The notes beneath the pieces are model-generated. The model was given only the letters and a program-made list of their open reading frames with translations, had not been told where the DNA came from and searched no databases. The position numbers and the translations under genes are program-made. Of a DNA stretch of 64,000 nt, positions 10,983 to 16,866 are shown in pieces; position 1 is the first letter of the stretch; each line of letters opens with the position of its first letter. This DNA comes from Spirochaetales bacterium (lineage in GTDB: Bacteria > Spirochaetota > Spirochaetia > JABEVK01), in contig CANJXC010000011.1 of NCBI GenBank assembly GCA_947478845.1, positions 1 to 64,000 of the forward strand, in the 5' to 3' direction.

Positions 10983-13058
10983 ATGCTTGCCGATATTCGC
11001 CGTCTTCGGAACGTTGCCCTCGTTGGGCACACCGGGACAGGTAAAACCACCCTGAACGAACAGTTGCTTTTCCATGGAAAGGCCATCCCAAAAGCCGAAA
11101 CGGTAGAGACTGGGCGCACCGTGAGCGACTTCACCGACGAGGAAATCCGCCGGGGTATTTCCATACACACAACGCTCAGCCACCTGATGTGGAAAGACAC
11201 CAAAATTAATCTTTTCGATACCCCGGGGTCGTCGGATTTTTCGGGAGAAGTCCTTGCGGCCTTTCGGGCCTGCGAGTCGGCTATTTTGGTGGTTGGAGCC
11301 CGGTCGGGGGTGCAGATTGAAACGCTGAAGTTGTGGCGCTACCTCGTAGACCATCAAATGCCCAAAATGGTGTATATCAACAAGGTCGATAAGGCTTCCA
11401 GCGACTTTTGGGAGACCCTCGGCGACTTGAAAGATAAGTTCTCGGTACCCTTCCTGCCGGTGACCATACCTCTTGGGCATGACGAAGACCATCGGGGTGT
11501 GATCAACCTCCTCGACATGAAGGCCTATAGGTTCAACAAAGCGGGTAACCCCGAGGTTGCCATTGAGATTCCCAGCGATTTTCTGGCCGAGGCGAAAAAG
11601 GCCCGCTACGCCTTAGTGGAGGAAGCGGCTGAGGCCGACGAGGAGCTGCTCGATAGGTTTGCCGGGGCGGACGACCTAGACACCGAGGACATCAAGAAGG
11701 GCCTTCAGCTCGGCTTAGCCTCCAACCAGTTCGTTCCCGTCTTTTGCGGTTCAGCGCTGCTTGGTTCTGGCCTGGTCCCCTTGCTCGACTTTCTAGCTTG
11801 GGACTCCCCTTCGCCGTACCACGTGGTGGAACCCTGCGTTTCCGGCGAAAAGGAACGCATCATCAGCCACGAGGGTGAGTTCTCCGGTTTGGTGTTCAAA
11901 ACCACCATAGACCAGTTTGCAGGTCACCTCAGCTACATCAAAGTGGTAACGGGAAAACTGACCCACAACAGCGAGGCCTACGTCCCGAGGCTGGGAAAAA
12001 CCGTCAAAATTGGCAAATTGATGCTGAGTCTGGGCAAAAAATTGGTGGAGACCGTTGAACTTGACGCCGGCGATGTAGGCATTTTGGCCCGCTCGGAGGA
12101 GCTCAAAACCAACGACACGCTTTGCCAGCCGGGCGACATTATTCACTACTTACCGCTCGAACTCCCGCGGCCGGTGCATTCCACGACAATCTCGGCCAAA
12201 GTGCAAAAAGACGACGACCGCTTGTCTCAGTTGTTGGTGAAGGAAACCGAACAGGACCCTACGTTTAGCGTGAACTACCACCACGACACCAAAGAGACCA
12301 TCCTTTCGACGCTCGGAGAACTGCAGATGTCGATTATTCTCGACAAGTTCAGGGCGGCTAAAATCGACTTCCTTACCAAGCCACCGCGCATCAAATACCG
12401 CGAGACCATTACCAAAGCCGCCGAGGCCGAATACACCCACAAGAAACAGACCGGCGGGCACGGGCAATATGGCAAGGTCTTGATGGACTTCCAGCCTCTT
12501 GCGCGCTCCTCAGGCTTCCGCTTTAGCAGCACGCTCAAGGGCCAAGGTATTTCTAAAGGGTATTTCGTCGCTATCGAAAAGGGTGTGCATGAGGCCATGG
12601 AGGAGGGTTTCCTCGCCGGATACCCGATGATCGACGTGGCGGCCAACCTCCAGGACGGAAAAGAGCACGCGGTCGACTCCTCCGAACTGGCGTTCAAGAT
12701 GGCTGCCCGCGGAGCGTTTCGCGAGGCCATGGCGGGGGCACACCCCATTCTGCTCGAACCGGTGATGAACCTTTCGGTGTTTATTGAAGAAAAATACCTT
12801 GGCGATGTACTGGCCGATCTTTCCGGTCGAAGGGGCAAGGTACTCGGCCAAGAAAGCTGGGGCCGTGACCTCATCATCGTCAAAGCTCAAGTGCCTCAAG
12901 CTGAGGTTCAGCAGTACGCCTTGCAGCTCAAGGCCCTCACCAGCAGCACCGGAGCCTTCGAAGCCGAGTTTGATCACTACAGCCCCATGAGTGCCAAAGA
13001 CAGCGAACCCTTGGTCAAGGAATATCAGGCACACCGCAAGGCAGGCGAGCACGAGTGA
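10983..13058 (+). CDS. Elongation factor G-like translational GTPase (EF-G2 type)
   Basis: The protein has 691 residues. A GTPase domain has the P-loop GHTGTGKT (residues 15-22), DTPGSSDF and NKVDK. It is followed by EF-G domains II-V, including TGGHGQYGKVLMDF of domain IV and RRGKVLGQE of domain V. The P-loop differs from canonical FusA, which carries a histidine-Asp-Ala-Gly-Lys form, and matches the EF-G-like or EF-G2 paralogue group. Such paralogues are ribosome-binding GTPases whose exact roles vary between species. It has its own promoter and stands as a single gene. Confidence 0.88.
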   Translation: MLADIRRLRNVALVGHTGTGKTTLNEQLLFHGKAIPKAETVETGRTVSDFTDEEIRRGISIHTTLSHLMWKDTKINLFDTPGSSDFSGEVLAAFRACESAILVVGARSGVQIETLKLWRYLVDHQMPKMVYINKVDKASSDFWETLGDLKDKFSVPFLPVTIPLGHDEDHRGVINLLDMKAYRFNKAGNPEVAIEIPSDFLAEAKKARYALVEEAAEADEELLDRFAGADDLDTEDIKKGLQLGLASNQFVPVFCGSALLGSGLVPLLDFLAWDSPSPYHVVEPCVSGEKERIISHEGEFSGLVFKTTIDQFAGHLSYIKVVTGKLTHNSEAYVPRLGKTVKIGKLMLSLGKKLVETVELDAGDVGILARSEELKTNDTLCQPGDIIHYLPLELPRPVHSTTISAKVQKDDDRLSQLLVKETEQDPTFSVNYHHDTKETILSTLGELQMSIILDKFRAAKIDFLTKPPRIKYRETITKAAEAEYTHKKQTGGHGQYGKVLMDFQPLARSSGFRFSSTLKGQGISKGYFVAIEKGVHEAMEEGFLAGYPMIDVAANLQDGKEHAVDSSELAFKMAARGAFREAMAGAHPILLEPVMNLSVFIEEKYLGDVLADLSGRRGKVLGQESWGRDLIIVKAQVPQAEVQQYALQLKALTSSTGAFEAEFDHYSPMSAKDSEPLVKEYQAHRKAGEHE

Positions 13059-13078: not shown

Positions 13079-13136
13079 TTGACAGCAAATTGAGGTGGGT
13101 TTAGGATCAATCCATTGATTGAATCGTTTGATTGAA
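13079..13136 (+). promoter_or_regulatory. Promoter and candidate TetR operator of the ABC-2 operon
   Basis: TTGACA (13079-13084) and TAGGAT (13102-13107) are 17 bases apart. Overlapping the -10 box is a 6-2-6 inverted repeat, ATCAAT-CC-ATTGAT (13106-13119), and TTGATTGAA then occurs twice (13115-13123 and 13128-13136), 13 bases apart. The operon ends with a TetR-family gene, so I infer that these repeats are its binding site and that the operon is autoregulated. AGGAGG follows at 13141-13146 ahead of the ATG at 13151. Confidence 0.6.
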
Positions 13137-13150
13137 CTTCAGGAGGAACT

Positions 13151-14236
13151 ATGCACGCCCTGCAAAAACACCTGGTCGGCCTTGTTGTAGGCCCGCTCGT
13201 GGTTGTCACCACGTTACTTCTGCTGTTGACCCAAGGCCTTCACCAGTTTCCGTTGGCCGTGAGCCAGGAAGATACAGGTTTTGACATGCCTGCGGCCGGC
13301 CACGTGAACATTCCCGAAAGCCTAGCTAAGACCCTCGACGCCAACGTGTTTGCCCTTCACCCGGCAAAAACTGCCGCTGAGGCCCAAGCCCTGTTCGACT
13401 CGGGCGCCGTCAAGGCGATGCTCAGCTTTCCCCCAGGCCTGAGCGAAGACGTGTTCATCAAGCAAGACGACCCCACCTATGTGTTCCCCGCGAAGATCAA
13501 ACTGCAGGTGGTCGGCGACAACCCCCTGGTCAAGCTTGCCGTTGTGGCCTCGCTCGCCAAAGGCTTTGTTCCGGTGATTGCCCAATCAGGAAGCTTCAAT
13601 GCCGATAGTTTGCCAATTCCCATCGATCTGGGGGCTTTGATCGACGGCTTTGCCCACGCAGAACCGTTTATGTTCACCACCTTGTTCGCCTTACTGGTGT
13701 CGGTGCTCACGGGTCTGTTCTCCCTCTTTGCCACCAAAGCGAGAGCGAAAACCGGCCTTCTGGACCCGAAGAAGGGGGCCTCGACCGCGCTGGCGCACAT
13801 CGTAAGTTTTGCCGTGGCCGGCTCGGTGCTTTACCTCTCGCTGCTCTCGGTGACCTACTGGCTGCGGGGCCTGCCGTTCACCGCAGGAATGTTTTGGGCG
13901 GGCCTGGTGCTGTTCGTGTTCTTCTGGGCCTGCGCGGGCCTTGGCCAAGCCGCAGGGAGCAATGTTCCCGAGCGCTCCATCGCGATTGTCCCGTTCTTGA
14001 TTCTGCCGTTATTTCTGGGCGGAATCTTCGCGCCGGTTGAGCTTTTGCCCACGTGGCTCCAATGGATCGAGTTCATTTTCCCTGCCCATTACGCGTTGGC
14101 GGCGGCCACAAACGTGGAGTTTGCGAAGCTCCCCTCCTTTGGTTGGGATCTGGGACTTCTGTTTCTTTTTGCCCTTATCTTTACCGGCGGCAGCATCCAC
14201 GGCCTCACCCAAACCCACAAGGAGAAACAAACATGA
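13151..14236 (+). CDS. ABC-2 type membrane permease, no partner ATPase nearby
   Basis: The protein has 361 residues. One N-terminal membrane segment (VVGPLVVVTTLLLLL) is followed by a periplasmic domain of about 130 residues (AGHVNIPESLAK, AEAQALFDSGAVKAMLSFP), then about five further membrane segments. The arrangement and the ending (LPTWLQWIEFIFPAHYALAA) match ABC-2 family exporter permeases of the drug or polymer type. Family members normally sit beside or are fused to an ATP-binding subunit, and none is present in this operon. It is translationally coupled by a four-base ATGA overlap to the next gene. The substrate is unknown; a lipid, drug or envelope component is plausible. Confidence 0.8.
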   Translation: MHALQKHLVGLVVGPLVVVTTLLLLLTQGLHQFPLAVSQEDTGFDMPAAGHVNIPESLAKTLDANVFALHPAKTAAEAQALFDSGAVKAMLSFPPGLSEDVFIKQDDPTYVFPAKIKLQVVGDNPLVKLAVVASLAKGFVPVIAQSGSFNADSLPIPIDLGALIDGFAHAEPFMFTTLFALLVSVLTGLFSLFATKARAKTGLLDPKKGASTALAHIVSFAVAGSVLYLSLLSVTYWLRGLPFTAGMFWAGLVLFVFFWACAGLGQAAGSNVPERSIAIVPFLILPLFLGGIFAPVELLPTWLQWIEFIFPAHYALAAATNVEFAKLPSFGWDLGLLFLFALIFTGGSIHGLTQTHKEKQT

Positions 14237-14925
14237 AAACCTTTTCACGAGCCTTAGCCCTCGCGTTTCTTGCCCTTTTTGGAGCCTCAGTTGCAGCCGA
14301 GACCTTCGAGGGTACCCTCGATTTGTGGATTGCCACTGTGGCGCAAAACACCAATGCCACGGGCTACATGAAGGGGCCGCACTTCAAGATTCTGCCTAAA
14401 ACCGCCCTCAAGATGGACGGAGGGGTGGAAGGCTACCCCATGCTCAACTTTGAAACCCTGAAGATGACCCTTGTGGCTCCAACCGACAAATACTTCCTCG
14501 ACCTCCCCATGGCATCGTTGCAAACACCCATCGACAAAGCAGTCGTCAAGTATAAAAAATCGGGGAAAACCGACACCCTTGGCGGTCATCCGGCCGAAGA
14601 GTGGGTGCTCGACGATCCGGCCAGCCCTTATAGCATCAACTTGTGGACAACCAAGGACTTTGCCCCGTCGGTGAACTTCCTCATCAGCGTTCAGAAGTCG
14701 GTTCCCAACGAAGGCCTCATCCTCGGCCGCATGGGCAAGGATCTGGTGGCGCAAGGGTATTTCCCCATCAAGGCCGAGGCCAAGGACGCCAAAGGTACGG
14801 TCACCGTGGCCATGCTGGTGAGCAATATCACACCCAAGAAGCTCGACGATAAAGAGTTCGTGATACCCGACGGCTTTATCAAAATGAGCGAGTTCCTCAA
14901 AAAGAAGAAGGGAGCCAAGCCGTGA
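14233..14925 (+). CDS. Periplasmic LolA/DUF4412-like protein
   Basis: The protein has 230 residues from ATG 14233, which overlaps the permease stop. A signal peptide (ALALAFLALFGASVAA) is followed by a mostly beta-strand domain: TFEGTLDLWI, HFKILPKTALKMDGG, LDLPMAS, TLGGHPAEEWVLD. This resembles DUF4412 or outer-membrane lipoprotein-sorting (LolA-fold) proteins, which hold a lipid or hydrophobic ligand in the periplasm. The assignment is by pattern, without a search. Position between an inner-membrane permease and a beta-barrel gene suggests a periplasmic carrier step. Confidence 0.65.
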   Translation: MKTFSRALALAFLALFGASVAAETFEGTLDLWIATVAQNTNATGYMKGPHFKILPKTALKMDGGVEGYPMLNFETLKMTLVAPTDKYFLDLPMASLQTPIDKAVVKYKKSGKTDTLGGHPAEEWVLDDPASPYSINLWTTKDFAPSVNFLISVQKSVPNEGLILGRMGKDLVAQGYFPIKAEAKDAKGTVTVAMLVSNITPKKLDDKEFVIPDGFIKMSEFLKKKKGAKP

Positions 14926-15599
14926 ACCGCAGATCACTCCTAGGCTTGCTCGCTCTGGCGCTGTGTTTGGGGCTCGCTGGCTCTGCTGGCGCCCTTGATG
15001 CGGGTATCGACGTAGGAGCCCAGTGGAAGAGTGGTCCTTGGCCCTTGCTCGCGGTTTCGCTGGGTCAGTCTTTGACCGACGATGTGTACCTCAGCATCGA
15101 CGCCAACGAGTCGCTGGCTGTGCTCGACGCCCGGGCCACGGCTTCCTGGACAACCCCACTGGCTACTGTGGGGGCCCAAGTGGGCTGGGAACAGACCACC
15201 TACCCTGCGGTTGGCACTGGTCGTCTTGATGTGGGCGGTTATGTGAGCGCCTCCTTGCCGCTCATGGGCGATCTGGCAGAAGTGGCAACCTCCCTGCAGT
15301 ACAAAACTGACTTGGTGGGCCATTCGCTCACCGTGAAGATTTCGCCCACTTTGTATTTGCCGCTAGCCAACCCGGTGATGGTTGGCCTTGTCGTGGCTCA
15401 AAATCTGGTTACCTCCGGCTACTCTGGCACCTCGTGGACCGGACCAAGCGCCCTTTCGGTAGGGCCGCAGGCGACGATCAGTTTGGCCTCGGAATGGGCG
15501 GTTTCCGCTTCGGCGGGCTATGCGTTTGATCTTTCTGGCGGGAGCTTCGCTGGGGGCCCTTACGGCAACGCGAAGCTAAGTTGGAGCCATGGCTTCTGA
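14922..15599 (+). CDS. Small outer-membrane beta-barrel-like protein
   Basis: The protein has 225 residues. It starts with GTG at 14922, overlapping the previous stop (GTGA). A signal peptide (LLGLLALALCLGLAGSAGA) leads into regularly alternating strands with glycine and aromatic girdles, such as GAQVGWEQTTYPAVG, GYVSASLPLMG and VSASAGYAFDLSGG. It ends NAKLSWSHGF. The terminal phenylalanine is the usual signal for assembly of outer-membrane barrels. Roughly 8-10 strands are suggested. No specific family is recognised. It overlaps the TetR gene by 11 bases. Confidence 0.7.
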   Translation: MNRRSLLGLLALALCLGLAGSAGALDAGIDVGAQWKSGPWPLLAVSLGQSLTDDVYLSIDANESLAVLDARATASWTTPLATVGAQVGWEQTTYPAVGTGRLDVGGYVSASLPLMGDLAEVATSLQYKTDLVGHSLTVKISPTLYLPLANPVMVGLVVAQNLVTSGYSGTSWTGPSALSVGPQATISLASEWAVSASAGYAFDLSGGSFAGGPYGNAKLSWSHGF

Positions 15600-16212
15600 A
15601 TCGACCGAAGAGCGCATCGTTCTCGCCGCGCTCGAGGTCATCGGTGTTTCCAGCATTGATACCCTTACCGTGCGCGATATCGCCGCGCGGGCGGGGGTGA
15701 ATGTGGCTACCGTACACTACTACTTCGGCACCAAGGAAAGGATAGTCAGCGAAGCCCTTCGCCAGTTCTTTCTTCCCGTGATGCGTCAGCTCGAAACCTC
15801 CTTGGAAAGTGAGCTTGCCCCCAAGCAAAAATTGGTGAACTTCCTCGAAATGTACACAGCCCAGTTTCGTGAGCATCCAGGGGTCTTTCAAAGCCTCATC
15901 AAGGTCATTTCCACAGTTGGCACTGAGAATCACGGGGAACAGCAAACCTATCAGACAGTTCTCACCCAAGTGATTGCCGGGGCCAAGGACAAGTTGGTGG
16001 GCCTTATACGCGAAATTACCGGCCTCGCCGACGAGAAGCAAGTGATCTTTCACGCACTGCGGACTATGACCAGTTGCTTGCACCCGTTGCTCAACTCAGG
16101 GCTCCCAGGACGAGTTTTTGGAGTTGACCTGCGAGACAAAGCTCTATGGCGCTCTTACCTAGAAGGTGTGGTCGCGTCGCTTGACGCTCATGGCCCCCCT
16201 CCTGCACCCTGA
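15589..16212 (+). CDS. TetR/AcrR family transcriptional regulator
   Basis: The protein has 207 residues. The N-terminal helix-turn-helix is clear: TVRDIAARAGVNVATVHYYF followed by GTKERIVSEAL. The rest is a helical ligand-binding domain. It overlaps the end of the beta-barrel gene by 11 bases, so it is part of the operon that starts at 13151. TetR proteins commonly repress export genes, and the inverted repeat at 13106-13119 is a good candidate target. The inducer is unknown but is probably whatever the membrane system handles. Confidence 0.9.
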   Translation: MASESTEERIVLAALEVIGVSSIDTLTVRDIAARAGVNVATVHYYFGTKERIVSEALRQFFLPVMRQLETSLESELAPKQKLVNFLEMYTAQFREHPGVFQSLIKVISTVGTENHGEQQTYQTVLTQVIAGAKDKLVGLIREITGLADEKQVIFHALRTMTSCLHPLLNSGLPGRVFGVDLRDKALWRSYLEGVVASLDAHGPPPAP

Positions 16213-16215
16213 GCC

Positions 16216-16866
16216 ATGGATTTTTCCCTGCTCGATTTGGTTTTGCACCTCGATAAGTCGCTTTTTGCGTTCTTCCGAGATTTCGGTTGGATAGCCTACG
16301 CAGTTGTTTTTCTCATTCTATTTTTGGAAACCGGGGTGGTGGTGATGCCTTTCCTGCCTGGTGACTCCTTGCTGTTTGCCTGCGGCGCTCTGGCAGCGTC
16401 GTTGGGTCTGAATCCCTGGGTGTTTTGGATCCTCACCACCTCGGCAGCCATTCTTGGGAACACCAGCAATTACGCCATAGGCCGTTTTGCAGGAAAAAGA
16501 CTTTTAGCGCCCAAACCTGGCCAGAAACCTTTAATTTCCGAGGAACATCTGCAGCAAACTCATGCCTTTTTCGAGAAATGGGGTGGGTGGGCCGTCAGCC
16601 TGAGCCGGTTTCTGCCCTTCCTTCGTACCTTTTTGCCCTTCGTCGCGGGCGTCGCCCTCATGCGGTTTGGCAAGTTTTCCTTCTACAATGTTGTCGGGGG
16701 TATTGTTTGGACCTTCCTGTTTCTGGCAGCAGGGTACTTGTTCGGAAACCTGCCCTTCGTCAAGGACAACTTCAGTCTTATCATCATGGGGATTGTGCTC
16801 ATTACTGCCCTTCCCGCCCTTGTTGGTTTCCTCTGGCCCAAGAAAAAGCAGACTCCCCCAGAATAG
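16216..16866 (+). CDS. DedA family membrane protein
   Basis: The protein has 216 residues and begins 3 bases after the TetR stop, so it is probably the last gene of the operon. The DedA/SNARE-associated pattern is visible: FLETGVVVMPFLPGDSLLF, GNTSNYAIGRFAGKRLL, and SRFLPFLRTFLPFVAGVALM, followed by hydrophobic helices to the C-terminus. DedA proteins act as flippases or as proton-dependent membrane homeostasis factors; some move undecaprenyl phosphate or phosphatidylethanolamine. Its presence with an ABC-2 permease and a lipid-carrier-like protein supports an envelope lipid role. Confidence 0.9.
   Translation: MDFSLLDLVLHLDKSLFAFFRDFGWIAYAVVFLILFLETGVVVMPFLPGDSLLFACGALAASLGLNPWVFWILTTSAAILGNTSNYAIGRFAGKRLLAPKPGQKPLISEEHLQQTHAFFEKWGGWAVSLSRFLPFLRTFLPFVAGVALMRFGKFSFYNVVGGIVWTFLFLAAGYLFGNLPFVKDNFSLIIMGIVLITALPALVGFLWPKKKQTPPE

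Follow-up and report, generated by a model that had tools for sequence, protein, structure and literature searches.

An ABC-2 permease without an ATPase gene, paired with a DUF4412 protein of predicted LolA-like fold in five Spirochaetota genomes, as a candidate lipid relay

An operon found in the window (the whole 64,000-nucleotide stretch of DNA that was analysed) pairs an ABC-2-type permease, here called PERM, with a DUF4412 protein that is predicted to adopt a LolA-like fold. We give about an even chance that it encodes a TetR-repressed, Lol-like relay that moves a lipid or another amphiphile from the inner to the outer membrane without an ATPase of its own. A more specific reading, which we hold with somewhat less confidence, is that PERM, by origin a type V ABC permease, lost its ATP motor and now serves at the inner membrane in a lipid relay across the envelope that is ATP-independent (or otherwise energised) and also comprises the DUF4412 carrier and a dedicated outer-membrane barrel. 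The direction, the substrate and the energy source of such a relay are what we infer.

The genes were located on the forward strand behind a single promoter, the sigma-70-like TTGACA-17-TAGGAT (13079-13107), which starts at base 13079 and agrees with the consensus at 10 of 12 positions. PERM, an ABC2_membrane_3 permease (13151-14236; Pfam ABC2_membrane_3, 58.8 bits), was followed with a 4-base overlap by the DUF4412 gene, whose product is presumed to be a periplasmic lipid carrier (14233-14925; Pfam DUF4412, 38.9 bits). Next came the gene of a probable outer-membrane β-barrel (14922-15599; GTG start; 4-base overlap with the DUF4412 gene), then that of a TetR-family regulator presumed to repress the operon (15589-16212; Pfam TetR_N, 43.7 bits; 11-base overlap with the barrel gene) and, after a 3-base gap, a co-directional gene for a DedA/VTT protein (16216-16866; Pfam VTT/DedA, 83.6 bits). 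The four Pfam scores were all above the curated cut-offs, and the barrel gene product had no Pfam match. The original prediction of five genes joined by overlaps of 4-11 bases or a 3-base gap was consistent with these coordinates, and its TetR gene was confirmed by the TetR_N score. No ATPase was found among the open reading frames or by Pfam between the end of the EF-G-like gene at 13058 and the end of the cluster. The EF-G-like protein itself (691 aa, 10983-13058) was encoded immediately upstream of the operon. Base composition gave no sign of recent transfer, the GC3 of the operon being 0.62-0.72 and that of the neighbours alike.

One copy of PERM was present in the source genome, and none was found in six other genomes of the same family. 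Among 393 Spirochaetota genomes, strong profile matches to PERM (at least 464 bits) and to DUF4412 (at least 308 bits) fell in an identical set of five genomes; both profiles were built from these five, so that high scores there were expected, and no other genome of the 393 gave a comparable match to either profile. The two genes were adjacent and in constant order in all five. Because the pair recurs in four other genomes, the pairing is not due to chance, and conservation of the core of the originally described cluster extends to other genomes. Genome G250 (L031) had PERM, DUF4412, barrel and TetR in the same order as the window. In G119 (L032) and G058 (L033) the gene after the pair was barrel-like and had 230-243 codons, and in G017 (L034) the pair was followed by a TetR gene of a different subfamily, with no recognised barrel. 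A barrel-like gene thus stood beside the pair in four of the five loci and a TetR gene in three, namely the window and two relatives. Five intact members were all that was found. A second PERM gene in G058, broken by 18 in-frame stops, lay beside a DUF4412 remnant (L086, contig C6), which suggests that the pair was duplicated and then decayed together in this genome. The cluster was absent from the other three genomes of the genus of G058, searches widened to the order and the class added no member, and no plasmid relatives of PERM or DUF4412 were found. A single-sequence scan of genome contigs gave no match, and a profile scan of genome contigs returned the Spirochaetota members again together with archaeal and other permeases. 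In G058, the PERM-DUF4412-barrel set also had directly upstream of it a LolA-like gene (PF17131) and another that was barrel-like (L033:6054-7967). Downstream lay a MacB/LolD-type ATPase with FtsX permeases, giving what may be two lipid export sets next to each other.

PERM consists of an N-terminal TM1, an ectodomain of about 135 residues, and TM2-TM6. Judged by its sequence, it is a member of the ABC-2 (type V) permease family, with a PF12698 match over residues 12-347 (58.8 bits); the relatives in L031, L032 and L034 also scored above the cut-off, and no FtsX or MacB_PCD match was found in PERM. Neither a fused nor an adjacent ATPase was found within the cluster in any of the five genomes, which upheld the original claim of a missing ATP-binding subunit and made it a property common to all five clusters. 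In the hand-read loci of related permeases elsewhere in Spirochaetota, an ABC ATPase adjoined the permease (confirmed by Pfam in two f32 loci), and an ABC ATPase likewise adjoined the permeases of the archaeal and Saccharibacteria relatives, which by profile score stood nearest among those from other phyla. Most of the 80 profile-scan loci were scored by a crude pattern that misses some ATPases, so that absence there means little. The TM2-TM3 loop takes a coupling role in the ABC-2 family, as is established, and would do so in the permeases compared here. In 20 ATPase-linked permeases this loop reads like REWERGTMETLITTPVRPFEVFTGK, with Glu at position 2 conserved in 95%, Gly and Thr at positions 6-7 in 85% each, Pro in 90%, and the final Gly-Lys in 90/85%; two f32 proteins and L088 showed weaker matches of the same type. 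This motif, at the coupling-helix position, was lost in all five PERMs with a deletion of at least 5 residues, and the deletion was larger in the L034 PERM, in which almost the whole loop was gone. In LptFG, the coupling helix is located between TM2 and TM3, and a conserved glutamate contacts the ATPase (PMC10094684). The five PERMs formed one clade in the tree (support 92/97), with weak deeper branching, and since they form one clade, a single loss of the motor would be the simplest reading. The residues invariant among the five PERMs were mostly in the ectodomain or the TM5-TM6 region and none in the TM2-TM3 loop, which suggests that PERM acts on the periplasmic side and, in the proposed mechanism, would offer a lateral binding cavity that faces the periplasm.

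The DUF4412 product had an apparent signal peptide and no lipobox cysteine. Its predicted structure (pLDDT 86.1) showed the LolA/RseB/EPDR1 fold, which agreed with the fold part of the LolA-like carrier originally predicted for the 14233 product. The model matched LolA (4ki3) with a Z of 10.7 and 3.7 Å over 143 residues, and RseB with a Z of 11.5; RseB/MucB and EPDR1 scored as high as LolA against it (equal Z), and the predicted fold does not tell a carrier from a sensor. A literature search found no paper mentioning the family by the name DUF4412, and the relay, if true, would give the family a concrete proposed role. The barrel protein was about 200 residues long in its mature form and ended in a C-terminal Phe. 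The outer-membrane barrel of the original prediction (14922 product) was favoured by nine long strands in the model and by the listed PDB matches, which were all β-barrel membrane proteins, but the confidence of the model was low (pLDDT 57.8) and the matches were weak (E 5e-3 and weaker), so that the assignment is only probable.

The presumed TetR operator, GGATCAATCCATTGATTGAATC (13104-13125, forward strand), overlaps the -10 element and resembles the palindrome ahead of the L031 operon, with 18 of 22 positions identical; among 100 shuffled pairs, the highest count was 16. A promoter was found at the corresponding place in L031 (TTGACC-17-TACATT), and both operator sites were located between a similar promoter and the PERM ribosome-binding site. 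The TetR proteins of the window and L031, encoded at the same gene position, were 42% identical. The shared position of the site and the identity of the regulators suggest that TetR probably controls this operon. With at most one mismatch allowed, the common operator pattern occurred once in the source genome (G000) and at one place in G250, both ahead of this operon, and had no match in eight other genomes. The reversed control pattern had one match in G000, so the uniqueness is weak by itself and the position carries the argument.

In the proposed relay, PERM would hand the cargo to the DUF4412 carrier, which would deliver it to or through the barrel; the flow may be driven by mass action, by insertion into the outer membrane, or by a gradient, and the ligand sensed by TetR is probably the cargo or something related to it. 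The co-occurrence of PERM and DUF4412, the loss of both the motor and the coupling loop, the single clade, the carrier fold, and the common promoter-operator layout were counted for this relay, and the more than 70 ABC_tran matches in the genome, the equal Z of the sensors RseB/MucB and of EPDR1, the low confidence of the barrel model, the one locus without a recognised barrel (L034), and the number of five intact members were counted against it. The relay touches two open questions, by what means lipids traverse the periplasm and whether an ABC-type membrane domain can function in the absence of ATP. Motor loss, docking-site loss, and linkage to a lipid-carrier fold coincide in this compact operon, which makes both questions testable.

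PERM could also be one half of an ABC exporter, served in trans by an ATPase whose gene lies at another place in the genome. Stand-alone ATPases are shared in other ABC systems, the abundance of ABC_tran matches would allow for one here, and the MacB/LolD-type ATPase of G058 with its FtsX permeases lay downstream of the cluster at a distance of about 1.2 kb. However, the coupling-loop motif was lost with a deletion in five of five PERMs, nearly the entire loop in L034, their N-terminal cytosolic segment was short and shortest in the window protein, and the archaeal relatives retained the loop and the adjacent ATPase together, which makes this arrangement unlikely. A retrograde relay, in which excess or foreign lipid would pass from the outer membrane via the barrel and the carrier to PERM as the inner-membrane acceptor, is slightly less likely again. 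Downhill flow would need no ATPase and a TetR regulator would suit a response to an unwanted amphiphile, whereas most LolA-fold carriers whose function is known transport outward.

An envelope sensor instead of a transporter, with PERM as a YhgE/Pip-like receptor and the DUF4412 protein as an RseB-like lipid or stress sensor, was considered improbable. The model TIGR03061 (YhgE/Pip N-terminus) matched four of the five PERMs with a best E of 7.7e-8, and the equal scores of RseB/MucB and LolA would fit this role, but the clusters showed neither an anti-sigma factor nor a kinase, TetR is a regulator of the one-component kind, and the pair had a barrel-like gene alongside in all loci except L034. 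The five copies are intact and open, have diverged in sequence, and keep the gene order and a set of invariant ectodomain residues, and a presumed operator is common to two genomes; these points make it very improbable that the operon is a decaying remnant of an ABC system or a set of chance neighbours, despite its rare and patchy distribution (absent from the six same-family relatives and the three other genomes of the genus of G058) and the broken copy in G058.

The preferred inner-to-outer-membrane relay resembles the Lol system (LolCDE-LolA-LolB, type VII ABC) in its inner-membrane ABC-derived protein, its presumed periplasmic carrier of LolA fold, and its flow to the outer membrane, which is proposed for the operon. 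Unlike the Lol system, PERM is of the type V/ABC-2 and not the MacB/LolC type, the operon has no LolD ATPase, the carrier is a DUF4412 protein, and a small probable barrel replaces the LolB lipoprotein. A literature search for ATPase-less ABC and LolA-like systems found the Borrelia BBJ23-29 cluster alone, a proposed export cluster that likewise unites an ABC permease, a LolA-like protein, and an outer-membrane barrel in a spirochaete, but its permease is MacB-like and comes with an ATPase of its own, its barrel is an Omp85 protein, and it also includes TPR proteins (PMC13078400). The YhgE/Pip and EsaA proteins are also ABC-2-like membrane proteins, with the weak N-terminal match in most PERMs described above, and two examples were read to be without the ER.xGT loop motif; in contrast to PERM, their ectodomain is much longer and their loci had no LolA-fold partner gene by the profile used. 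The window PERM scored 15.9 bits against the YhgE/Pip NCBIfam model, below the cut-off of 96.15. With profile scores of about 200 bits, ABC-2 exporters of Thermoplasmata archaea (L093, L094, L096) were the nearest permeases outside Spirochaetota; they have the stretches VN.D.GM.T and P.EALP.WLRP in common with PERM but keep the ERTSGTL loop motif and an adjacent ABC ATPase, with no DUF4412 match in the locus.

The DedA protein, listed as a component in the original prediction, was rejected as a core part, since its gene came after the operon in the window only and no DedA gene was found in L031-L034. A polyprenyl synthetase gene (L032:8451-9512) was located shortly downstream of the barrel-like gene in L032; the polyprenyl cargo hinted at by this gene and the window DedA was too thin to claim. 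In L034, a gene for an EI24/CysZ-like membrane protein (L034:10570-11376) was located downstream of the TetR gene of the cluster.
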